The translations under genes were made by a program, and so were the position numbers. From Actinoplanes italicus (GTDB taxonomy: Bacteria; Actinomycetota; Actinomycetes; Mycobacteriales; Micromonosporaceae), in the NCBI RefSeq assembly GCF_003001815.1, contig NZ_PVMZ01000001.1:1-64000 (forward strand): 64,000 nt of DNA, in the 5' to 3' direction. Below the pieces are notes generated by a model. The model saw only the letters and a program-made list of their open reading frames with translations, searched no databases and was not told the origin of the DNA. This document shows, piece by piece, positions 17,426-56,549 of the stretch; the first letter of the stretch is position 1; the number at the start of each line of letters is the position of its first letter.

Positions 17426-17746
17426 ATGACAGACGACGATCGGGTGTTCAAGGCATTGGCCGACCCGAGCCGTCGATTCCTGCTCGACCTGCTGTTCGCG
17501 CGTGACGGCCGCACGCTCACCGAGCTGGAGTCGGAGCTGGAGATGACCCGGTTCGGGGTCGCCAAGCATCTGCGCGTGCTCGAGGAGGCGGGTCTCGTCG
17601 TCGTGCGCCGCTCCGGACGCGAGAAATTGCACTACCTCAACAGTGTGCCGATCCGGCAGATCCACGACCGGTGGATCGACAAGTTCACCGAGCAGCACAT
17701 CACCGCACTGATCGATCTCAAGCGAACGCTGGAGGAAGAGTCATGA
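17426..17746 (+). CDS. ArsR-family transcriptional repressor
   Basis: The 106-residue winged-helix protein has the ArsR core: DDRVFKALADPSRRFLLDLL, the recognition helix MTRFGVAKHLRVLEEAGLV and the wing RRSGREKLHYL. It lacks the CxC metal box, so it belongs to the non-metal branch usually paired with SRPBCC proteins. It appears leaderless, with a perfect palindrome between -35 and -10, so autorepression is likely. Its stop overlaps the ATG of the SRPBCC gene by four bases. Confidence 0.9.
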   Translation: MTDDDRVFKALADPSRRFLLDLLFARDGRTLTELESELEMTRFGVAKHLRVLEEAGLVVVRRSGREKLHYLNSVPIRQIHDRWIDKFTEQHITALIDLKRTLEEES

Positions 17747-18249
17747 GCGACACCCAGGTCTTCCGCATCTGGATCAAGGCACCGGCCGACAAGGTCTGGC
17801 AGGCCATCACCGACCCCGAGTGGAACCAGCAGTACGCCTACGCCGCGCCCCAGTTCTTCGAGCTGAAGAAGGGCGGCCGGTTCTACTCGACGGCCAACCA
17901 GGGGATGAAGGACTACGCGGCCGCCAACGGGTTCGACATGCCCGAGATCATCCTCGATGGCGAGGTGCTGGAGGCCGAGCCGCCGCGCCGGCTCGTGCAG
18001 ACCTGGCGGATGCTGATGGACCCGACCACCGGCGCCGAGCCGTTCACGACGCTGACCTGGGACATCGAGGAGGCGGGCGCCGGGGTTCAGCGGGTCACCA
18101 TCACCCACGAGACGCCGGGCGCCCCAGCCACCGCCGCGATGATCCGCGGCAACGAGGAGGCCGGCGCCGAGGGTGGTGGCGGCTGGGCCTGGGTGCTCAG
18201 CGACCTCAAGTCCCTGCTGGAGACCGGCAAGATCATGGCCGGCGCCTGA
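17743..18249 (+). CDS. SRPBCC/AHSA1-family ligand-binding protein
   Basis: The 168-residue protein has the START/AHSA1-like fold pattern: FRIWIKAPADKVWQAITDPE at the N terminus, GGRFYSTANQG, EVLEAEPPRRLVQTWRM and a C-terminal helix GGGWAWVLSDLKSLLETGK. It probably binds a small hydrophobic ligand. Together with the ArsR partner it forms the widespread ArsR-SRPBCC pair. It is translationally coupled through an ATGA overlap. Confidence 0.88.
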   Translation: MSDTQVFRIWIKAPADKVWQAITDPEWNQQYAYAAPQFFELKKGGRFYSTANQGMKDYAAANGFDMPEIILDGEVLEAEPPRRLVQTWRMLMDPTTGAEPFTTLTWDIEEAGAGVQRVTITHETPGAPATAAMIRGNEEAGAEGGGGWAWVLSDLKSLLETGKIMAGA

Positions 18250-18377: not shown

Positions 18378-19013
18378 GTGAGCGACGGGGAGTTGGAGAC
18401 GTACAGCCTCGTCGAGCTCGCCGTCGACCGCCTGAAGCGAGACATCCTAAGCGGACGGACCGATCCTGGTGAGCGACTGGTCGAGGAGCAGCTGACCCGC
18501 CGTCTGGGGATCAGCCGGGCGCCACTGCGCGAGGCGATGCGGCTGCTCGCGGAGCAGGGTCTCGTCGAGCACATCCCGCGGCGGGGTGCGCGGGTCGCCA
18601 CACTGTCCGACGACGACGTGCGCGAGCTGTATGAGGTTCGCGACGTCCTGGAGCGCCACGCGGTGACCACCACTCCCCCGGGACGCGACCTGAGCCGGCT
18701 GCGGTCCGCCCTCGAGTCAATCCGTAAGGCGACCGAGGCCGACGACCGGCTGGAGCTGGCCAACGCGCACCGGCGGTTCCATGTCGAGGTGGTGGCGCTC
18801 AGCGGAAACCGGCAGCTCACCGGGCTGTATGAGTCGATCCTGGTGCGGATTCAGCTCTACATGGCGGTGAACATGCGGCGTGAGGCCGAGACCGCGCGGG
18901 CGCTGGACGGGGTGCTGCGGCACGAGCGGCTGTTCGAGGCGGCGGAGCACGGTGACGCCGACGCTCTGCTGGAGGCTCTCGGCGGGCACGGCGCCCGCAC
19001 CTACTTGAACTGA
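18378..19013 (+). CDS. GntR-family (FCD) transcriptional regulator
   Basis: This 211-residue regulator starts at GTG. The N-terminal winged helix reads VELAVDRLKRDILSGRTDPG, LTRRLGISRAPLREAMRLL and then IPRRGARVATL. The C-terminal all-helical FCD domain has the ligand/metal pattern NAHRRFHVEVVALSGN. No ribosome binding site precedes the GTG. It heads the nitrogen cluster and is the likely regulator of it. The palindrome ATTGTCGACAAT at 19277 is a plausible target. Confidence 0.88.
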   Translation: MSDGELETYSLVELAVDRLKRDILSGRTDPGERLVEEQLTRRLGISRAPLREAMRLLAEQGLVEHIPRRGARVATLSDDDVRELYEVRDVLERHAVTTTPPGRDLSRLRSALESIRKATEADDRLELANAHRRFHVEVVALSGNRQLTGLYESILVRIQLYMAVNMRREAETARALDGVLRHERLFEAAEHGDADALLEALGGHGARTYLN

Positions 19014-19040
19014 CGGGGTTCGGCTGGCTTTCGCTCCGTC

Positions 19041-19160
19041 GGGCCACGCTCCGCCGGGATTCGCTCCGCCGGGCCACGCTCCGCCGGGATTCGCTCCGCC
19101 GGGCCACGCTCCGCCGGGGCTCGCTCGGCTGGCCACGCTCTGACAGGCCACGCTCCGCCG
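19041..19160. repeat. 30-base tandem repeats between gntR and atzF
   Basis: Near-identical 30-base units, beginning GGGCCACGCTCCGCCGGGAT, occupy 19041-19070 and 19071-19100. A variant lies at 19101-19130 and a broken unit follows. No gene is supported here. Confidence 0.85.
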
Positions 19161-19276
19161 GGGCTCGCTCGGCTGGTCGGGCGGGTGTCCGGCGGGTGGG
19201 TTTCACTGGCGTCACATGATGGCGGTTAGCGGTGGGAAATCGGGGCGTTACACAACGCGGTCCTGAGTGAAACAGA

Positions 19277-19288
19277 ATTGTCGACAAT
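19277..19288 (+). promoter_or_regulatory. Putative GntR operator
   Basis: ATTGTCGACAAT is a perfect 12-base palindrome with the GT...AC core typical of FCD-type GntR sites. It lies just downstream of the gntR gene, at the front of the catabolic genes, and overlaps the annotated TTG start of atzF. Confidence 0.5.
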
Positions 19289-21293
19289 CGACGATGTGGA
19301 GGCACACGAGAACGTCGATCAAGCGCTCGCCGCGCCGGCGCCGGACGGGGTCTGGATCAGCCGGTTCACGGCGGCGGAGCTGCATGCTCGCGCCGACGCG
19401 GTCGATCCGGAGCTGCCACTGGCCGGGGTGACCTTCGCGGTCAAGGACAACATCGACGTTGCGGGGCTGCCGACCACTGCCGGATGCCCGGACTTCGCCT
19501 ACCTGCCGGAACGCAACGCGCCGGTCGTGCAGCGCCTGATCGACGCCGGTGCGATCGTCGTCGGCAAGACGAACCTGGACCAGTTCGCCACGGGGCTGAC
19601 CGGGGCGCGGTCGCCGTACGGGGCACCGGAGAGCGTCTTCGGTGGCGGGCTGATCTCGGGCGGGTCCAGTTCGGGGTCGGCGGTCGCGGTCGCCAACGGG
19701 TCGGTGGCCTTCTCGCTCGGCACCGACACTGCCGGGTCGGGGCGGGTGCCGGCGGCGCTCAACGGCATCGTCGGGATCAAGCCGACCCGGGGGCTGCTCA
19801 GCACGCTCGGGGTGGTTCCGGCGTGCCGGTCTCTGGACTGCGTCTCCGTCTTCGCCCGCGAGATGTCCCTGGCCGAGTCGGTGATGCGTGTCGCGCGTGG
19901 CCGCGTGCCGGATGACCCGTGGGCACGGGACGCCCCGCAAGCCGTGGAGGCGCAGCAAACCCGGCAGGGCTGGGAGGCCCGGCAAACCCGGGAAGTGCGG
20001 CAAACCCCGGAAGGCTGGGAGGCCCGGCAAGCCGGGGAGAGCCAGCCAGGACAGAAGGCACGGGTCGGGGTCGCGGAAGGTCTCGACTTCTTCGGGGACA
20101 GCGGGCAGGAGAAGGCTTACGCGCGGTTCGCCGGGGACACCACCGTGGACATCGGGCCGTTGCTCGAGGCCGGGGACCTGCTCTATCGCGGGCCCTGGGT
20201 AGCCGAGCGCCTCGCCGATCTCGGGGATTTCCTGGCCGCACACCCGGAGTCGGTCCTGCCGGTCACGCGCCGGGTTCTGGAGACCGGGTCCGGGTTCAGC
20301 GCGGCTGACGCGTTCCGGGGGCGGCATCGCCTGCGGGAGCTGCGTGCGGCGGCGGACCGGATGTGGGAACGGATCGATGTGCTGGTCCTGCCGACCATCG
20401 GCACGACGTTCACACATGCCGAGATCGCCGCGGATCCGATCGGGCGCAATCTGATTCTCGGGCGGTACACCCAGTTCGCGAATCTGCTGGACATGGCCGC
20501 GGTGACGATCCCGAACGGGTTCACCGAGGACGGCCGTCCGGCGTCGCTGACGCTGTTCGGACCGGCGTTCAGTGACGACTCACTGATGACGCTGGCCCGG
20601 TCTCTCTACCCCGAGCCCGAGAGTGCGGCCGGGCACACGCTGCGGGGCCGCGTACTCGGCGGCGCAGGCCCGGGCGGGACCGGGACCGGGCCGGGCGCCA
20701 CGGGGCCGGGCGCAACCAGACCGACCCGGACCGGAGCGGACGGGACCGAAGCGGACAGGACCGGAGCAGGCGGGACCGGAGCAGGCGGGACCGGAGCGGA
20801 CGGGATCGAGCCGGATGCGGCGGGCATGACCGTCGCTGTCGTGGGGCTGCATCTCAGTGGCGAGCCCCGCAACGGTGAGCTGCTCGAACGCGGCGCAACG
20901 CTGGTCGGGGCCGGCCGGACCGCGCCCGTCTACCGGATGTACGAGCTGCCGTCGGGCGCCCCGGGGCTGGTCCGCGTCGACGAGGGCGGCGCCACCGTCG
21001 AGATCGAACTGTGGCGACTGCCGGCCGAGGCCGTCGGCGGCTTCCTCACGGGCATCCCGGCGCCGCTGTCGCTGGGACGGCTCCTGCTGGAGGACGGCGC
21101 CGAGGTCACCGGCTTTCTGTGTGAGGCGTACGCGGTGCGCGGCGCCCGTGACATCACCGCCAGTGGCGGCTGGCGGAAGCACCGCCATCGGTCACCGGCA
21201 GAACCGCCAGCGGCGGCCGGCGGAACCACCGCCATCGGTCACCGGCAGAACCGCCAGCGGCGGCTGGCGGAACCACCGCCTGAAGGGAACTGA
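19278..21293 (+). CDS. atzF: Allophanate hydrolase with low-complexity insertions
   Basis: The enzyme hydrolyses allophanate to ammonia and CO2, the last step of biuret, urea-carboxylase or cyanurate nitrogen release. The N-terminal amidase-signature domain shows Lys56 (VKDNID), GGSSSGSA (128-135) and the nucleophile Ser154 in DTAGSGR. The C-terminal domain (about 516-630) reads VAVVGLHLSGEPRNGELLERG and ends at ITASGGW like AtzF. Two low-complexity blocks are inserted (about 222-258 and 457-515), and a roughly 40-residue tail comes from a 47-base repeat. The start is uncertain: TTG 19278 lies in a palindrome, and GTG 19296 is the alternative. The next start is three bases after the stop. Confidence 0.9.
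   Translation: MSTIDDVEAHENVDQALAAPAPDGVWISRFTAAELHARADAVDPELPLAGVTFAVKDNIDVAGLPTTAGCPDFAYLPERNAPVVQRLIDAGAIVVGKTNLDQFATGLTGARSPYGAPESVFGGGLISGGSSSGSAVAVANGSVAFSLGTDTAGSGRVPAALNGIVGIKPTRGLLSTLGVVPACRSLDCVSVFAREMSLAESVMRVARGRVPDDPWARDAPQAVEAQQTRQGWEARQTREVRQTPEGWEARQAGESQPGQKARVGVAEGLDFFGDSGQEKAYARFAGDTTVDIGPLLEAGDLLYRGPWVAERLADLGDFLAAHPESVLPVTRRVLETGSGFSAADAFRGRHRLRELRAAADRMWERIDVLVLPTIGTTFTHAEIAADPIGRNLILGRYTQFANLLDMAAVTIPNGFTEDGRPASLTLFGPAFSDDSLMTLARSLYPEPESAAGHTLRGRVLGGAGPGGTGTGPGATGPGATRPTRTGADGTEADRTGAGGTGAGGTGADGIEPDAAGMTVAVVGLHLSGEPRNGELLERGATLVGAGRTAPVYRMYELPSGAPGLVRVDEGGATVEIELWRLPAEAVGGFLTGIPAPLSLGRLLLEDGAEVTGFLCEAYAVRGARDITASGGWRKHRHRSPAEPPAAAGGTTAIGHRQNRQRRLAEPPPEGN
21154..21285. 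repeat. 47-base direct repeats at the 3' end of atzF
   Basis: The motif starting ACCGCCATCGGTCACCGGCA occurs at 21181 and 21228, a 47-base period, with a shorter related unit just before. As 47 is not a multiple of three, the copies are read in different frames. Together they append about 40 residues to the natural C terminus. Confidence 0.8.
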
Positions 21294-21296
21294 ATC

Positions 21297-21989
21297 ATGA
21301 CCGCACGTATCGGGCCTGTGCAGGCCGACCCGTACGCCTGGCCCTACGACGGCTCGGTCCCGGTGGACCGGACCGCTCTGCTCTGCATCGACTGGCAGAC
21401 CGACTTCTGCGGGCCGGGCGGCTACGTCGACGCGATGGGTTACGACATCGAGCTGACCCGCGCCGGGCTGCCGGCCACCGCGAAACTGCTCTCGCACGTC
21501 CGTGAGCTGGGCATGCTCGTCATCCACACCCGCGAGGGGCATGACCCGGACCTGTCCGACCTGCCGGCCAACAAGCGCTGGCGGTCGAAGCGGATCGGGG
21601 CGGAGATCGGCGGTCAGGGGCCGTGCGGACGGATCCTGATCAAGGGCGAGCCGGGCTGGGAGATCGTCCCCGAGGTCGCGCCGGCGCCTGGTGAAGTCGT
21701 GATCGACAAGCCGGGCAAAGGCGCGTTCTATGCCACGAATCTTGACCTCGTTCTGCGTACCCACGGCATCACGCATTTGATCCTGACCGGAATCACCACG
21801 GATGTCTGCGTGCACACGACCATGCGCGAGGCCAACGACCGCGGCTACGAGTGCCTGATCCTCAGCGACTGCACGGGGGCCACCGATCCGTCCAACCACA
21901 CCGCCGCCCTGCACATGGTCACCATGCAGGGCGGTGTCTTCGGCTGCGTCGCCACCTCCGACGACGTGATAGCGGCACTGGGAGCATGA
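21297..21989 (+). CDS. biuH: Biuret amidohydrolase
   Basis: The 230-residue isochorismatase-fold cysteine hydrolase is predicted to convert biuret to allophanate and ammonia. Asp36 (IDWQTDF), Lys141 (DKPGKGAF) and Cys171 (TTDVCVHTT) form the triad. The N terminus DPYAWPYDG and the [17 protein letters not shown] stretch closely match what I recall of Rhizobium BiuH. It is flanked by atzF and a second paralogue and shares an operon with both. Related ureidoacrylate hydrolases are an alternative but lack the DPYxWPY start. Confidence 0.85.
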
Positions 21990-22646
21990 ATGCCTTCTGT
22001 CGACGCGAAACCCGGCCCTTTCGAATTCGATCTGGACACCACCGCGCTGCTGGTCATCGACATGCAGCGGGACTTTCTTCTGCCCGGCGGCTTCGGTGAG
22101 TCGCTCGGCAACGACGTGTCACAGCTGCGGCGGACGATCGAGCCGCTCGAGAAGCTCCTGGCAGCCTGGCGTGCCACCACCATGCCCATCATCCACACTC
22201 GCGAGGGGCATTTGCCTGATCTGTCGGATTGCCCACCGGCGAAGCTCAAGCGCGGGCCGATGATCGGGCAAGAGGGCAACTTCGGCCGCATTCTCGTCCG
22301 CGGCGAATACGGCCACGACATCATCGACGAACTGAAGCCGGGTGAGGGCGAACCGGTGGTCGACAAGCCCGGCAAGGGCGCGTTCTATGCCACCGATCTG
22401 CACAAGATCCTCGACAACGACGGCATCAAGTCCCTGGTCGTCACGGGGGTCACGACTGAGGTGTGCGTGCACACCACGGTCCGTGAGGCGAACGACCGCG
22501 GCTACGAGTGCCTGGTCCTGGCCGACTGCGTCGGCTCCTACTTCCCCGAGTTCCAGCAGATCGGCCTCGAGATGATCGCCGCGCAGGGCGGCATCTTCGG
22601 CTGGGTCGCCGAGTCCCCCGCTCTGATCGAGGAGATCGCCCGATGA
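21990..22646 (+). CDS. Second isochorismatase-fold cysteine hydrolase
   Basis: This 218-residue paralogue of biuH begins immediately after its stop. Asp28 (IDMQRDF), Lys129 (DKPGKGAF) and Cys159 (TTEVCVHTT) are kept. The substrate-facing segments differ: the DPYxWPY start is lost, ANKRWRS becomes PAKLKRG, and CTGATD becomes CVGSYF. It probably acts on a related amide such as a ureido or carboxylated compound, which would widen the pathway. Its stop overlaps the permease ATG by four bases. Confidence 0.85.
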   Translation: MPSVDAKPGPFEFDLDTTALLVIDMQRDFLLPGGFGESLGNDVSQLRRTIEPLEKLLAAWRATTMPIIHTREGHLPDLSDCPPAKLKRGPMIGQEGNFGRILVRGEYGHDIIDELKPGEGEPVVDKPGKGAFYATDLHKILDNDGIKSLVVTGVTTEVCVHTTVREANDRGYECLVLADCVGSYFPEFQQIGLEMIAAQGGIFGWVAESPALIEEIAR

Positions 22647-24193
22647 AACTCGCCTACTGGGTCCGGGGCGACACCAACGCCTTCTTCGGGTTCGGTGTCA
22701 ACGTCCTGGTCAACGTGCTCACCCTGACCGGCCTGTGCCTCGGCGTGATCGGCTTGCCCGCCGGCAACGTCTTCGGCGTGATCCTCCCGGCGCTGGGCAT
22801 CGCGCTGGTGGCCGGCAACGTCTACTACACCTACCTGGCCCGGCGGCTGGCCGCCAGGGAGAACCGCTCCGACGTGACGGCGCTGCCGTACGGCCCGAGC
22901 GTCCCGCACATGTTCATCGTGATCTTCGTGATCATGCTGCCGATCTACCTGACCACGAAGGATCCGATCGCCGCGTGGACCGCCGGTATCGCGTGGGCGT
23001 TCATCATCGGTGTGATCGTGCTGATCGGCGCGTTCGTCGGCCCGTACATCAGGAAGTACACGCCGCGGGCCGCGCTGCTCGGCACCCTGGCCGGCATCTC
23101 GATCACGTTCATCTCGATGAACCCGGCCGGCAACATGTGGAACTACGCGTGGATCGCGCTGCCGGTCTTCGGCCTGCTGCTGATCGGCTTGCTCACCGAC
23201 GTGAAGCTGCCGTTCAACTTCCCGATCGGGCTGGCCGCGCTGCTCGTCGGCACGGCGATCGGCTGGATCGGCGGCGCCATGTCGGTGCCGGACGTGCAGA
23301 GCGCCGCGAAGGACATCGCGTTCGCGTTCCCGCACCTCAAGTTCGACCTGCTCATCGACGGGCTGAAGGACATGGCGCCGCTGCTGGCGACCGCGATCCC
23401 GCTCGGCGTCTACAACTTCACCGAGGCGATGACCAACGTGGAGAGCGCCGCGACCGCCGGTGACCGGTACAACCTGCGCAGCGTGCTGCTGGCCGACGGC
23501 GCGGGAGCGGTGATCGGCTCGTGTCTCGGGTCGCCGTTCCCGCCGGCCGTCTACGTCGGGCACCCCGGGTGGAAGGCCGCGGGTGGCCGTACCGGATATT
23601 CGATGGCCACCGGCATCGTGATCGCCCTCCTCTGCTTCTTCGGGTTGTTCGGGCTGCTCGGCGCGATCTTCCCGACCGCGGCAATCGTGCCGATCCTGCT
23701 CTACATCGGCCTGCTGATCGGCGCGCAGGCGTTCCAGGCGACACCGAAGGCGCATGCCGCCGCCGTGGTGGCCGCGCTCATCCCGAACATCGCCTCCTGG
23801 GCGACCGGCCTCATGGACAACTCGCTGGCCGCAGCCGGTACGACAGCCGCACAGGTCGGCAACGAGGCGCTGGCCGGGGCCGGAGTGGTCTACGACGGCC
23901 TCAAGACGCTCGGTCAGGGCGCCATCCTGGCCGGTCTGGTGCTCGGCGCGATCGTGGCGTTCATCATCGACAAACGGTTCTGGCACGCCGCGATCTTCTC
24001 GGCCAGCGGTGCCGTGCTCACCTTCATCGGCCTGATCCACGCCGAGAAGGTGCAGTTCAACGCGGACGGGCCGGTGTCACTCGGCTACCTCTTCCTCACG
24101 GTGGTCTGCGTGCTGTTCGCGTTGGGCAAGCCCACGCCGCGAGAGCCCGAGCCCGAGGAGGCGTCCCTCGAAGAGCCCGCCCCGGTGGCCTGA
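22643..24193 (+). CDS. Purine/xanthine-uracil-type permease
   Basis: The 516-residue polytopic membrane protein has about 12-14 hydrophobic segments. A conserved NVESAATAGDRYN stretch resembles the NVESA region of AzgA/NCS2-type transporters, and the AYWVRGDTNAFFGFGVNVLVN start is typical of that branch. It probably imports the nitrogen-rich substrate, such as a purine breakdown product or heterocycle. The ATG overlaps the hydrolase stop (ATGA). The C terminus is acidic (EPEPEEASLEEP). Confidence 0.85.
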   Translation: MKLAYWVRGDTNAFFGFGVNVLVNVLTLTGLCLGVIGLPAGNVFGVILPALGIALVAGNVYYTYLARRLAARENRSDVTALPYGPSVPHMFIVIFVIMLPIYLTTKDPIAAWTAGIAWAFIIGVIVLIGAFVGPYIRKYTPRAALLGTLAGISITFISMNPAGNMWNYAWIALPVFGLLLIGLLTDVKLPFNFPIGLAALLVGTAIGWIGGAMSVPDVQSAAKDIAFAFPHLKFDLLIDGLKDMAPLLATAIPLGVYNFTEAMTNVESAATAGDRYNLRSVLLADGAGAVIGSCLGSPFPPAVYVGHPGWKAAGGRTGYSMATGIVIALLCFFGLFGLLGAIFPTAAIVPILLYIGLLIGAQAFQATPKAHAAAVVAALIPNIASWATGLMDNSLAAAGTTAAQVGNEALAGAGVVYDGLKTLGQGAILAGLVLGAIVAFIIDKRFWHAAIFSASGAVLTFIGLIHAEKVQFNADGPVSLGYLFLTVVCVLFALGKPTPREPEPEEASLEEPAPVA

Positions 24194-24574
24194 GTGGAAC
24201 GCGACCTTCCCGACGTGATCGCCGAGGTCACCACCGCGTTCGAGGCCTACGAGCGGGCACTGGTCGACGACGACGTCGACGCGATCATCGGCTTCTTCGC
24301 ACCCGAGGCGATTCGCTTCGGCATCGCCGACCAGCAGGCCGGCATCGAGGAACAACGCAGGTGGAGGGAGATGCAGGGCGGTCTGCCGCCGGGTCGCCGG
24401 CTCAAGGACACGACCATTCGCGGGTACGGCCGGAGCAGCGCCGTGGTGACGACGCTCTTCGGTTACCCCGGCACGGATGTGCTGGGTCGCCAGTCGCAGA
24501 CGTGGATCAGGCTGCCCGAGGGTTGGCGCATAGTTCACGCCCACGTCTCCGAGCCCGCGGCTCAGCCCACGTAA
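24194..24574 (+). CDS. AtzH/HpxZ-family protein
   Basis: The 126-residue SnoaL-like protein matches the family that contains AtzH (decarboxylation of dicarboxyurea to allophanate in cyanurate degradation) and HpxZ (oxalurate catabolism). AFEAYERALVDDDVDAIIGFF, then IRFGIADQQAGIE and GRQSQTWIRLPEGWRIVHAHVS are characteristic. It starts with GTG directly after the permease stop. With atzF it suggests a carboxylated urea intermediate in this pathway. It overlaps the convergent glycosyltransferase gene by 13 bases. Confidence 0.8.
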   Translation: MERDLPDVIAEVTTAFEAYERALVDDDVDAIIGFFAPEAIRFGIADQQAGIEEQRRWREMQGGLPPGRRLKDTTIRGYGRSSAVVTTLFGYPGTDVLGRQSQTWIRLPEGWRIVHAHVSEPAAQPT

Positions 24575-54131: not shown

Positions 54132-56549
54132 TCAGGAGTGGACGGACAGGTCGGCGGTGTGACCGTCGGGGCCGTTCCCCGGGCCGTCACCGGGATGCTG
54201 GCCGGAGCCCGGCGGCATACCCTGACCGGGGCCGCCGGGAGCCATGCCGGATCCGGGACCGCCGGGCATCTGCTGACCGGTTCCCGGGACACCGGGCATC
54301 GACTGTCCCTGGCCGGGACCGCCGGGCATCCCGTTACCCGGCCCTTGGCTACCGGGCACCCCATGCCCCGGACCAGGACTGCCGGGCATGGCGTGACCCG
54401 GACCAGGACTGCCGGGCATGGCGTGACCCGGACCAGGACTGCCGGGCATCGGCTGGCCGTAACCGCCGGGGCCTCCTGGTGAATGCGGCATGCCATGACC
54501 GGACGGCTGCATCGAGCCGCCGTCGACCACCTGCCCGTTGATCACCTGCCCGTTGATGAACTCGCCGGAGATCACCTGGCCGGAAATGACCACGCCGGGG
54601 CTGATGGGCATGCCCTGGACCGGCATCGGCTGCTCGCCGGGGCCATATCCGTGATGCCCCGGTCCGGCGTGACCCTGCCCGGGCGTCCCGTGACCGGGGA
54701 AGTCCGGCCCCTGGCCACCCGAACCCGGCATCCCGTGACCCGGGAAGTCCGGCCCCTGGCCACCCGAACCCGGCATCCCATGACCCGGGAAGTCCGGCCC
54801 CTGGCCACCCGAACCCGGCATCCCATGACCCGGGAAGTCCGGCCCCTGGCCACCCGAACCCGGCATCCCATGACCCGGGAAGTCCGGCCCCTGGCCACCC
54901 GAACCCGGCATCCCATGACCCGGGAAGTCCGGCCCCTGCGGGCCGGCGCCGGGCATCGGACCCTGGCCGGCCATCATGCCGGCGGGCGGACCCACCGAAA
55001 CACCCTGCGGGGGCATGGCTGGAGAGCCCGGGCCGGGCGGCATCCCCGCGCTGACCGGCATGCTCTGCATCGGCGGCATGCCGACCGGCTGCAGCGGCGG
55101 CATCCCGGGAGGCATGCCCATCGGAGGTCCCTGCGGCATGCCGGGCGGCGGGCCGGACGTCATCCCGTTCTGGCCGGCGGAGGCGCCCTGCGGTCCGGCG
55201 TGGGCGGCGGCGACGAGACGGCGCGCGATCTCCGGCGCCGCGGCCCAGTGCAGGCCGAGCTGGGAGGCGTGCACCTGACGCCAGACGAAACCCTCCGGAT
55301 TTCCACCGGACCAGGTCCAGGCCGGGTTCGAGCCGGCACGCGGGGCAACGACCGCACGGTGCTGCTTGTAGCCGGTGATCCGGGCGCCGGCCGGGGCCAG
55401 CACCGACGTGCCGGGGGCGGTCGCCTCCCGGTAACCGGCGACGGTCTGCTCACCCGTGGTCGCGGTCGCGTCCAGGACACCGCACATCGGGCGGCCGTCC
55501 AGCTCGTGGCCCAGCCAGGGCAGCGCGATGCCCTCGGCGATCACCGGCCAGCCGTCCCGGGCGAACTGGGCGACGGCCGAGCAGAGCCGGCGGTTGGCGG
55601 AGAGCTCCTCGGCGTACCCCTCGGGAAGTCCCGCTCCCACCACCAGCGCGCGGGTGCCCGGCGGCAACGCCTCGTCACGCAGCGGGTCGACCACCGCGAC
55701 GTCCGCGCCGGCCGCGGTGAGCAGCTCCGCGGTCTCCACGTAGGTGTAGGGCGCGCCCTGCCCACCGGCCAGGGCGATCACCGGCCGCTGATCGAACTGG
55801 ACGTCCCCGGCCGCCTCGGCCGGGGTCCAGAGCGGACCGGGGATCGGCGGCGCGGACGCGGCGAGCGCCATCAGGCGCTCCATGTCGAGGGAACCGGCGA
55901 CCGCCTCGCCGAGACGGCGGACCGCACGGCCGGCCTCGACGGTCCGGTGCGCCACCGGGACGAGCCCGTGGGTCCGGGGCGGCAACGCGTTCGGCAGGTC
56001 GCCGCGGTGCAGCGCGCCGAGCACCGGCATGCCGATGTCGTCCATGGCGCTGCGCAGCATCTGCTCGTGCCGGTCGGAGGCGACCCGGTTCAGGATGACA
56101 CCGCCGAGGTGCACCATCTCGTCGAACATGCGGAAGCCGTGCACCAGCGCGGCCAGGGAGTGGCCCATCGCGGCGACGTCGACGACGAGCACGACGGGGG
56201 CGCGCAGGGCGGCCGCGACCGAGGCGGTGCCGTCGATCTCCGGCTGGCCGGTCAGGCTGTCGAACAGGCCCATCGCGCCCTCGATGACGGCGACCTGGGA
56301 GCCGGAGGCGCCGTGCGCGAACAGCGGCGCGACACGCTGGGCCCCGACCAGTCGCGGGTCCAGGTTGCGGCCTGGCCGGCCGGCGGCGAGGCCCAGGTAG
56401 GCCGCATCGGTGTGATCCGGGCCGACCTTGAAGCCCGCCGCGGGGATGCCCCGGCCGCTCAGCGCGGCGAGCAGTCCCACGGCGATGGCCGTCTTGCCGT
56501 GTCCCGACGACGGCGCGCTCACGACCAGACGAGGCTGGGCGGTGATCAA
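54132..56549 (-). CDS. CobB-like cobyrinate a,c-diamide synthase homologue with long repeat tail
   Basis: Residues 1-450 of this 805-residue protein match CobB/CbiA: the ATP loop SAPSSGHGKTA (11-21), KVGPDHTDAAY, LDP and VIEGAMGLFDS, with a class I glutaminase domain behind. Where AECGG with the nucleophile Cys is expected, it reads AEGIA (Gly340), and HASQLGLHW replaces the usual HASYLHxHW. Residues 451-805 are Gly/Pro/Met-rich repeats: five or six copies of MPGSGGQGPDFPGHG, pentapeptides (VISGQ, FINGQ) and MPGSPGPGHA units. TTG start with GGGGGAG upstream. It is divergent from the SURF1 gene. Confidence 0.8.
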   Translation of the reverse strand: MITAQPRLVVSAPSSGHGKTAIAVGLLAALSGRGIPAAGFKVGPDHTDAAYLGLAAGRPGRNLDPRLVGAQRVAPLFAHGASGSQVAVIEGAMGLFDSLTGQPEIDGTASVAAALRAPVVLVVDVAAMGHSLAALVHGFRMFDEMVHLGGVILNRVASDRHEQMLRSAMDDIGMPVLGALHRGDLPNALPPRTHGLVPVAHRTVEAGRAVRRLGEAVAGSLDMERLMALAASAPPIPGPLWTPAEAAGDVQFDQRPVIALAGGQGAPYTYVETAELLTAAGADVAVVDPLRDEALPPGTRALVVGAGLPEGYAEELSANRRLCSAVAQFARDGWPVIAEGIALPWLGHELDGRPMCGVLDATATTGEQTVAGYREATAPGTSVLAPAGARITGYKQHRAVVAPRAGSNPAWTWSGGNPEGFVWRQVHASQLGLHWAAAPEIARRLVAAAHAGPQGASAGQNGMTSGPPPGMPQGPPMGMPPGMPPLQPVGMPPMQSMPVSAGMPPGPGSPAMPPQGVSVGPPAGMMAGQGPMPGAGPQGPDFPGHGMPGSGGQGPDFPGHGMPGSGGQGPDFPGHGMPGSGGQGPDFPGHGMPGSGGQGPDFPGHGMPGSGGQGPDFPGHGTPGQGHAGPGHHGYGPGEQPMPVQGMPISPGVVISGQVISGEFINGQVINGQVVDGGSMQPSGHGMPHSPGGPGGYGQPMPGSPGPGHAMPGSPGPGHAMPGSPGPGHGVPGSQGPGNGMPGGPGQGQSMPGVPGTGQQMPGGPGSGMAPGGPGQGMPPGSGQHPGDGPGNGPDGHTADLSVHS
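54361..54450. repeat. Three 30-base tandem units in the cobB-like tail
   Basis: Units at 54361, 54391 and 54421 end in the same GACCAGGACTGCCGGGCAT and encode MPGSPGPGHA on the minus strand. They keep the reading frame. Confidence 0.85.
54694..54966. repeat. 45-base tandem repeats in the cobB-like tail
   Basis: GGGAAGTCC starts at 54697, 54742, 54787, 54832, 54877 and 54922, a strict 45-base period. Each unit encodes MPGSGGQGPDFPGHG on the minus strand. Central units are nearly identical, which suggests recent amplification. Confidence 0.92.

Follow-up and report, generated by a model that had tools for sequence, protein, structure and literature searches.

Which nitrogen compound feeds the six-gene run that Actinoplanes italicus carries on its first contig? 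The genes, all on the + strand at 18378 to 24574 of the window (the whole analyzed stretch of 64,000 nt, which opens the first contig of an 11.15-Mb genome in 71 contigs), encode in order a GntR-family regulator (P0001), AtzF (P0002), BiuH (P0003), a second hydrolase (P0004), a permease (P0005), and an AtzH-like protein (P0006). A first-pass annotation had described an operon for scavenging nitrogen from biuret and allophanate, with a partner of the AtzH/HpxZ family, and the family models agree with it, as do the gene positions and the tight spacing of the last five genes (gaps of 3 and 0 bases, an overlap of 4, and a gap of 0, within the reported overlaps of 4 and gaps of 0 to 3). It had also placed the entry to the route at biuret, a carboxybiuret, or an oxalurate-like compound. 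Triuret, absent from that list, is the likelier entry, since the second hydrolase is of the TrtA type. Taken as a whole, the six genes probably form a triuret utilization operon (probability roughly 0.78), as judged from sequence and genomic context. Gene identities, gene order, TrtA- and BiuH-type residues, clades, and co-occurrence carry this reading; what each protein acts on in this organism, which reaction P0006 carries out, and how transport and regulation work are inferred from them.

Triuret, in which three urea units are linked, occurs as an impurity in urea fertilizer (PMC7948467; this and the other reports are cited from their available text). In the route described there, TrtA converts triuret to carboxybiuret, CO2 is lost, BiuH converts the resulting biuret to allophanate, and AtzF hydrolyzes the allophanate. 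Carboxybiuret decays unaided with a half-life of about 20 min; TrtB is the published carboxybiuret decarboxylase; and TrtA, BiuH, and AtzF are encoded in one operon in Herbaspirillum and Rhizobium. A trtA-trtB-biuH-atzF set is also reported in ammonia oxidizers (PMC12625717, where the abstract prints "trtA, biuH, and atzH" and the body text has trtB and atzF). In A. italicus, we propose that P0005 would import triuret, that P0004 would deaminate one terminal amide to give 1-carboxybiuret, that P0006 would speed the decarboxylation of carboxybiuret to biuret, replacing the cupin of proteobacterial and verrucomicrobial clusters, and that P0003 would deaminate biuret to allophanate. Hydrolysis of allophanate by P0002 would thus allow all four nitrogens to be freed as ammonia. 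Between TrtA and BiuH, P0006 would serve a kinetic purpose, since carboxybiuret might otherwise leak away or stall ahead of BiuH.

The second hydrolase as a predicted triuret hydrolase

P0003 exceeds the cut-off of the BiuH equivalog model NF050097 (424 against 370 bits), has the biuret hydrolase 6xjm as its best PDB match, and falls in the BiuH clade. P0004 fails the same cut-off at 259 bits, on which ground we rejected it as a second BiuH; RutB was likewise rejected (110 against 378 bits). Its best PDB match is 6xix (E = 2e-73), the TrtA structure of PMC7948467, ahead of the BiuH chains. That report names seven active-site residues shared by the two enzymes and six positions that separate them. 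All seven shared residues are present in P0004 (D24, F29, E72, K129, K132, C162, and Q202 in TrtA numbering, including the Asp-Lys-Cys triad), as is the TrtA letter at all six separating positions (F35, N41, E160, Y187, I205, and A134), for a total of 13 of 13. In P0003, five of the six positions read as in BiuH (YYDTV); position 134 is Ala, as in RhdBiuH, and being Ala in P0003 and P0004 alike it does not separate the two. The YYDTVA letters of P0003 recur in 20 of 30 BiuH rows and in RhdBiuH.

P0004 had been called a biuH paralogue that keeps its triad and has a different substrate pocket. The triad is kept, but the pocket part does not hold: the seven first-shell residues are identical in P0003 and P0004, and the differences are confined to entrance and second-shell positions. 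The label itself should give way to a TrtA-type one on the strength of the PDB match, the NF050097 score, the 13 residues, and phylogeny. In a tree of 60 rows (20 chosen, plus a random 40 of the remaining rows from the 80 loci described below, with the frame-broken biuH row of locus L034 left out), TrtA and BiuH lie on opposite sides of one branch with support of 100/100, and P0004 lies on the TrtA side. Among the best 80 of 581 P0004 relatives, which were retained as the named set, the closest matches are from Actinoplanes, Paractinoplanes, and Jidongwangia, and all 80 carry FNEYI followed by A (66) or S (14). A first-shell pocket like that of BiuH, together with TrtA-type residues and clade, therefore makes triuret the natural candidate substrate, and P0004 is very probably trtA, with triuret hydrolase as its predicted activity.

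Entry at cyanuric acid was rejected, as the cyanuric acid hydrolase model PF09663, which matched 4 of 18 genomes, has no match in this genome. No AtzE scores over the cut-off in this genome either (best 280 against 426 bits). The earlier statement that cyanuric acid hydrolase, AtzE, and AtzG are missing thus holds for the first two; AtzG was not searched for.

Genomic context of trtA and biuH

Window proteins were compared by tblastn with 80 loci, those of the best 80 of 581 P0004 relatives, and three arrangements emerged. The first, gntR-atzF-biuH-trtA-permease-AtzH-like, is that of Micromonosporaceae, and Streptomyces and Pseudonocardiaceae show variants of it; a search for this gene order had been suggested by the first-pass annotation, and the order proved common to many Micromonosporaceae. 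Within the genus, 21 of 35 genomes have a P0004 homologue (E ≤ 1e-100) with an adjacent second BiuH-like match, a recurrence that goes beyond chance. The second arrangement, atzF-trtA-permease, often with gntR and without biuH, is found in Nocardia, Rhodococcus, Mycolicibacterium, and others. The third places trtA with fdrA/DUF1116-like genes in 10 of the 80 loci (gene identities taken from reading the sequence, with no family scan).

Genomes with biuH-less trtA loci (n = 31, drafts among them) encode BiuH elsewhere in 10 cases and give no BiuH match in 21. AtzF lies beside trtA in 23 of the 31, and 19 of these 23 draft-level genomes (Nocardia-, Rhodococcus-, and Mycobacterium-like, and others) lack a BiuH match. 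In such TrtA-AtzF clusters, triuret would have to reach allophanate by a route that bypasses biuret.

An alternative hypothesis is that P0004 is not a triuret hydrolase here and acts on another ureide, with the operon taking in several ureides. The oxalurate-type neighbors of the third arrangement speak for it, as do a TrtA-type gene with such neighbors on an Escherichia coli plasmid, another in Peptoclostridium with the signature changed to FNHFIA, and the 19 of 23 genomes with TrtA-type and AtzF genes and no BiuH match. P0004, however, has all 13 TrtA residues, its published partners BiuH and AtzF are present in the window, and the available text of PMC7948467 gives no other tested substrate of TrtA above 0.5% of triuret. 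We consider a different ureide substrate for P0004 very unlikely and retain triuret.

Flanks of 4 kb or more on either side are available for 62 of the loci. Among them, 25 include biuH, and 20 of these have an AtzH-like gene no more than 4 kb from trtA, versus 0 of the 37 without biuH (Fisher p = 6e-12, shared descent ignored). We then pooled loci, assigning biuH and trtA by the better tblastn score and counting L153, which has the same sequence as L032, once. The 38 distinct loci with both genes comprise 24 with an AtzH-like gene, 11 with a cupin, none with both, and 3 with neither: L031 (short), L042, and L048 (Chloroflexi and related bins). Loci with biuH and without trtA (n = 21) split into 4 with a cupin, 1 with an AtzH-like gene, and 16 with neither; the "biuH" genes of L149 to L151 are only 48 to 52% identical to P0003 and may be other hydrolases. 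Where trtA occurs without biuH (n = 57), a cupin lies within 4 kb once (L030) and an AtzH-like gene twice (L147 and L193, both with an AtzE-like match in the locus), leaving 54 with neither. One of the latter, Terrarubrum L191, carries trtA, permease, atzF, a DUF4089 gene, atzE, and hpxZ; its hpxZ lies beyond 4 kb, hence its place in this class, and it is an AtzE-AtzH route.

A tie of the AtzH-like gene to BiuH alone was rejected: at separate biuH loci we found AtzH-like genes in 0 of 10 and cupins in 0 of 10, with five of the ten having less than 4 kb on one side. The one exception, L152, has an AtzH-like gene beside biuH without trtA, and its genome, G471, holds two PF09663 genes on another contig. 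These two AtzD-family genes are another possible source of carboxybiuret for L152; the PF09663 family also holds barbiturases. PF09663 has no match in the window genome or in genome G569.

The cupin, small and ChrR-like, is carried by loci of Proteobacteria and Verrucomicrobia that hold trtA as well as biuH. In NCBIfam the cupins give only ChrR-type matches, all below cut-off. A Rhizobium plasmid reads ring-opening amidohydrolase-biuH-cupin-atzF, and an Agrobacterium plasmid reads biuH-trtA-cupin-atzF. From this context, the cupin is possibly TrtB; no text naming the sequence family of TrtB was found in the literature searched, which leaves out most subscription papers.

TrtA-type genes beside atzF and without biuH include those of L022, L024, L027, L028, L035, and L038, among others. 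P0004 matches occur in 269 plasmid records, 78 of them from Escherichia. Loci L192 (6983 to 12951), L198, and L199 illustrate these settings outside actinobacteria; on one E. coli plasmid, a TrtA-type gene (FNEYIA) is accompanied by a cytosine permease and by genes for DUF2877, DUF1116, and carbamate kinase.

The AtzH-like protein and a proposed carboxybiuret step

P0006 matches the AtzH-like family PF11533 (119.5 bits, cut-off 27) and has 2owp, 2rcd, and 6bjt (AtzH) as PDB relatives; it remains under the HpxZ equivalog cut-off of NF033625 (111 against 135 bits). The first-pass annotation had named membership in a SnoaL branch unrelated to AtzH/HpxZ as one outcome that would overturn its view. 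P0006 instead groups with AtzH and 2rcd, though in its own clade: the 25 linked AtzH-like rows, with the duplicate L153 left out, form one side of a branch with support of 100/99.

AtzH is the first characterized member of its family, and nine of its pocket residues are named in PMC6219798. Read off an alignment, seven of the nine are kept in P0006 (Tyr22, Arg46, Arg63, Arg73, Phe94, Gln106, and Gln108), and the full arginine pocket is broken at Arg66 and Arg96, where P0006 has Gln and Tyr. Gln/Tyr is shared by 21 of 23 linked relatives, the other two (L033 and L071) having His/Tyr and His/His; Tyr22 and Arg46 are present in P0006 and in each of the 23. Arg/Arg occurs at these positions in AtzH, 2rcd, L132, L133, L141, L147, L191, and L193. 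Five of these six loci have an AtzE-like match at 55% identity or more (L132, L141, L147, which is the query itself, L191, and L193), and L133 has none. Positions 66 and 96 are Ala/Tyr in the AtzH-like protein of L152 and Arg/Phe in the distant row L134.

The lack of arginines at AtzH positions 66 and 96 is in keeping with a substrate that bears a single carboxylate, unlike dicarboxyurea. We tentatively propose, at a little under even odds, that P0006 decarboxylates carboxybiuret, in which case Tyr19 and Arg41 (AtzH Tyr22 and Arg46) would be its working residues. A broader claim has two parts that must hold jointly: that the linked AtzH-like clade is a second carboxybiuret decarboxylase, of a fold unrelated to the cupin, which it replaced in actinobacterial triuret clusters through the loss of two arginines, and that the permease next to it represents a new, so far undescribed ureide importer family. 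This joint claim we regard as somewhat more doubtful than the P0006 reaction taken singly.

P0006 could alternatively act as AtzH does, on 1,3-dicarboxyurea: TrtA would deaminate both ends of triuret, P0006 would yield allophanate, and BiuH would only rescue leaked biuret. The seven AtzH pocket residues that P0006 keeps are compatible with this, the available text of PMC6219798 does not list Arg66 or Arg96 variants among those with significantly lower activity, and a biuret-free route would explain the TrtA and AtzF clusters in BiuH-less genomes (19 of 23). Yet this hypothesis predicts AtzH-like genes in just those biuH-less clusters where they are missing (0 of 37 loci), and the Arg/Arg form goes with AtzE, the dicarboxyurea-making enzyme, for which this genome has nothing over the cut-off. 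Dicarboxyurea as the P0006 substrate is, in our view, distinctly improbable. Another possibility is that P0006 is a helper outside the main route, for example a stabilizing or regulatory NTF2-like partner of BiuH or of the permease. Its type does track BiuH in the same cluster and adjoins biuH without trtA in L152. Against a helper role stand the residues of the AtzH activity pocket, conserved in P0006 and the 23 linked relatives, and the separate biuH loci, none of which has an AtzH-like gene within the stretch available. We judge it unlikely and prefer carboxybiuret decarboxylation.

A survey of 394 genomes of Actinomycetes bears on how general this step could be. A PF11533 match was present in 39 and a BiuH- or TrtA-type match in 42, with both hydrolase types in 26. 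Outside the window genome there are 38 AtzH-like places, from which we retrieved the best 20 and left 18 aside. In 18 of the 20 (L154 to L171), an AtzH-like domain and an AtzE-like amidase match share one long open frame, apparently as AtzH-amidase fusions; Arg66 is present in all 18, and position 96 is Arg in five and otherwise Leu, Pro, Phe, or Tyr. The remaining two places are L153 (the Streptomyces cluster) and L152.

Several observations weigh against the proposed pathway or its P0006 step. In the places examined, the linked AtzH type is confined to two of the 26 genomes with both hydrolase types, the window genome and G569; a PF11533 match in an open frame of at least 591 amino acids, of the amidase-fused kind where examined, is present in 15 of the remaining 24. 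The AtzH-like protein is therefore not needed wherever TrtA and BiuH meet and goes with the tight cluster, and our confidence in the P0006 step is lower because so many genomes hold both enzymes without it. Its actinobacterial co-occurrence with the cluster may reflect shared descent rather than function. Carboxybiuret decays unaided with the half-life given above (PMC7948467), and most biuH loci without trtA (16 of 21), including the atzD-biuH locus L172, have neither a cupin nor an AtzH-like gene nearby. The structure 2owp, with Cys/Ser at positions 66 and 96, falls inside the linked clade; L141 has an Arg/Arg AtzH together with an AtzE-like match and both trtA and biuH. Since Arg66 and Arg96 variants of AtzH are not reported as impaired in the available text, loss of both residues need not change the substrate. 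TrtA-type genes occur without BiuH, so that the TrtA signature may not always mean triuret, and the activities of both P0004 and P0006 are predictions.

The permease

The designation of P0005 as a purine-type permease goes no further than a remote NCS2-like profile similarity. P0005 matches no Pfam family up to E = 10 and has no credible NCBIfam or PDB match; PF00860 (NCS2) in particular has no match in P0005 or any of 26 homologues. A profile of the P0005 family resembles NCS2 remotely (P = 3.7e-5, probability 71%), followed by AzgA (P = 9.3e-4) and an MFS control (P = 0.041); as yardsticks, NCS2 gave P = 2.3e-6 with AzgA and P = 0.36 with MFS, all rough values from small alignments. A permease homologue occurs in 71 of the 80 loci, within 150 bp of trtA in 57, and adjoins the trtA homologue in all 19 same-genus loci fetched (of 21; L090 to L108, about 1.5 kb on each side). 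Plasmid records label P0005 homologues "regulator," "xanthine permease," "xanthine/uracil/vitamin C permease," or "hypothetical protein." On another E. coli plasmid than the one described above, a P0005-like permease has fdrA, DUF1116, and carbamate kinase genes as neighbors, which makes a wider ureide range likely. On a short contig of a Candidatus Bathyarchaeota bin (L043 2 to 1994), the permease and a TrtA-type gene lie side by side.

Relation to known systems

The pathway itself is already published (PMC7948467), and the AtzH-like gene is the new part. Like the TrtA-TrtB-BiuH-AtzF pathway of Herbaspirillum sp. BH-1 described in that report, the Actinoplanes cluster unites TrtA, BiuH, and AtzF with the TrtA and BiuH residues as described; unlike it, the cluster has an AtzH-like gene, no cupin, a dedicated permease, and an actinobacterial host. 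With the AtzDGEHF cyanuric acid operon of Pseudomonas sp. ADP (PMC6219798), it shares an AtzH-family protein beside AtzF and a carboxybiuret intermediate. It differs in having no AtzD match and no AtzE over the cut-off in the genome, and in a P0006 without Arg66 and Arg96. HpxZ of oxalurate catabolism (NF033625) belongs to the same fold family as P0006, which scores below its equivalog cut-off, and the NCS2 uracil/xanthine permeases (PF00860) show a remote profile similarity to the P0005 family without a direct match. In the literature searched, which lacks most subscription papers, and judging by titles, abstract openings, and selected passages, we found nothing published that describes actinobacterial AtzH-like genes next to trtA and biuH, a P0005-type permease, or triuret with Actinoplanes.

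An AtzH-like clade with a two-residue difference and different genetic partners offers a simple test of what the AtzH pocket recognizes, and it may be a case of two unrelated small folds handling one unstable intermediate, carboxybiuret. The cluster further suggests that soil actinobacteria (Actinoplanes, Micromonospora, Streptomyces, and others) make use of triuret, and its permease belongs to a family without any model.

Gene layout, regulator, and other features of the locus

Table 1. Features of the putative triuret utilization operon (window coordinates)
Feature	Position	Strand	Basis
GntR-family (FCD) regulator P0001	18378..19013	+	PF00392 60 bits, PF07729 66 bits; GTG start
AtzF allophanate hydrolase P0002	19278..21293	+	NF006043 and TIGR02713 over cut-off; C-terminal AH_C domain
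BiuH biuret hydrolase P0003	21297..21989	+	NF050097, PDB match, residues, clade
Putative TrtA triuret hydrolase P0004	21990..22646	+	PDB match, 13/13 residues, clade
Permease P0005, candidate triuret/ureide importer	22643..24193	+	Context and remote NCS2 profile suggest import
AtzH-like NTF2-fold protein P0006, candidate carboxybiuret decarboxylase	24194..24574	+	PF11533, PDB relatives, pocket, and clade suggest function; GTG start
Perfect palindrome TTGTCGACAA, possible GntR operator	19278..19287	.	At atzF start; weakly indicated

P0002 scores 671 bits against NF006043 (cut-off 487) and 624 bits against the equivalog TIGR02713 (cut-off 511), with the AH_C domain matched. Its start is TTG as listed, and a GTG at 19296 is also possible. 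A gntR homologue lies upstream in the same cluster in many relatives among the 80 loci, and P0001 probably controls the operon. The palindrome TTGTCGACAA recurs exactly in 5 of 36 relatives' gntR-downstream gaps, every one in a Paractinoplanes locus; with one mismatch permitted, it is no rarer in the window than by chance.

G+C-rich tandem repeats with periods of 15, 30, 45, and 47 lie before and inside atzF (19030 to 19170, 19927 to 20046, 20728 to 20815, and 21156 to 21280). The last three, inside the gene, correspond to in-frame low-complexity inserts and the C-terminal end of AtzF.

Upstream of the run on the same strand are an ArsR-like regulator (17426 to 17746) and an SRPBCC/AHSA1-like gene (about 17735 to 18249), with both names taken from reading the sequence and not from a family scan. 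Several Actinoplanes loci have a related pair of open frames in the upstream position. Outside the operon, a tandem array with a period of 45 occupies 54682 to 54938 (5.7 copies, 98% matches).

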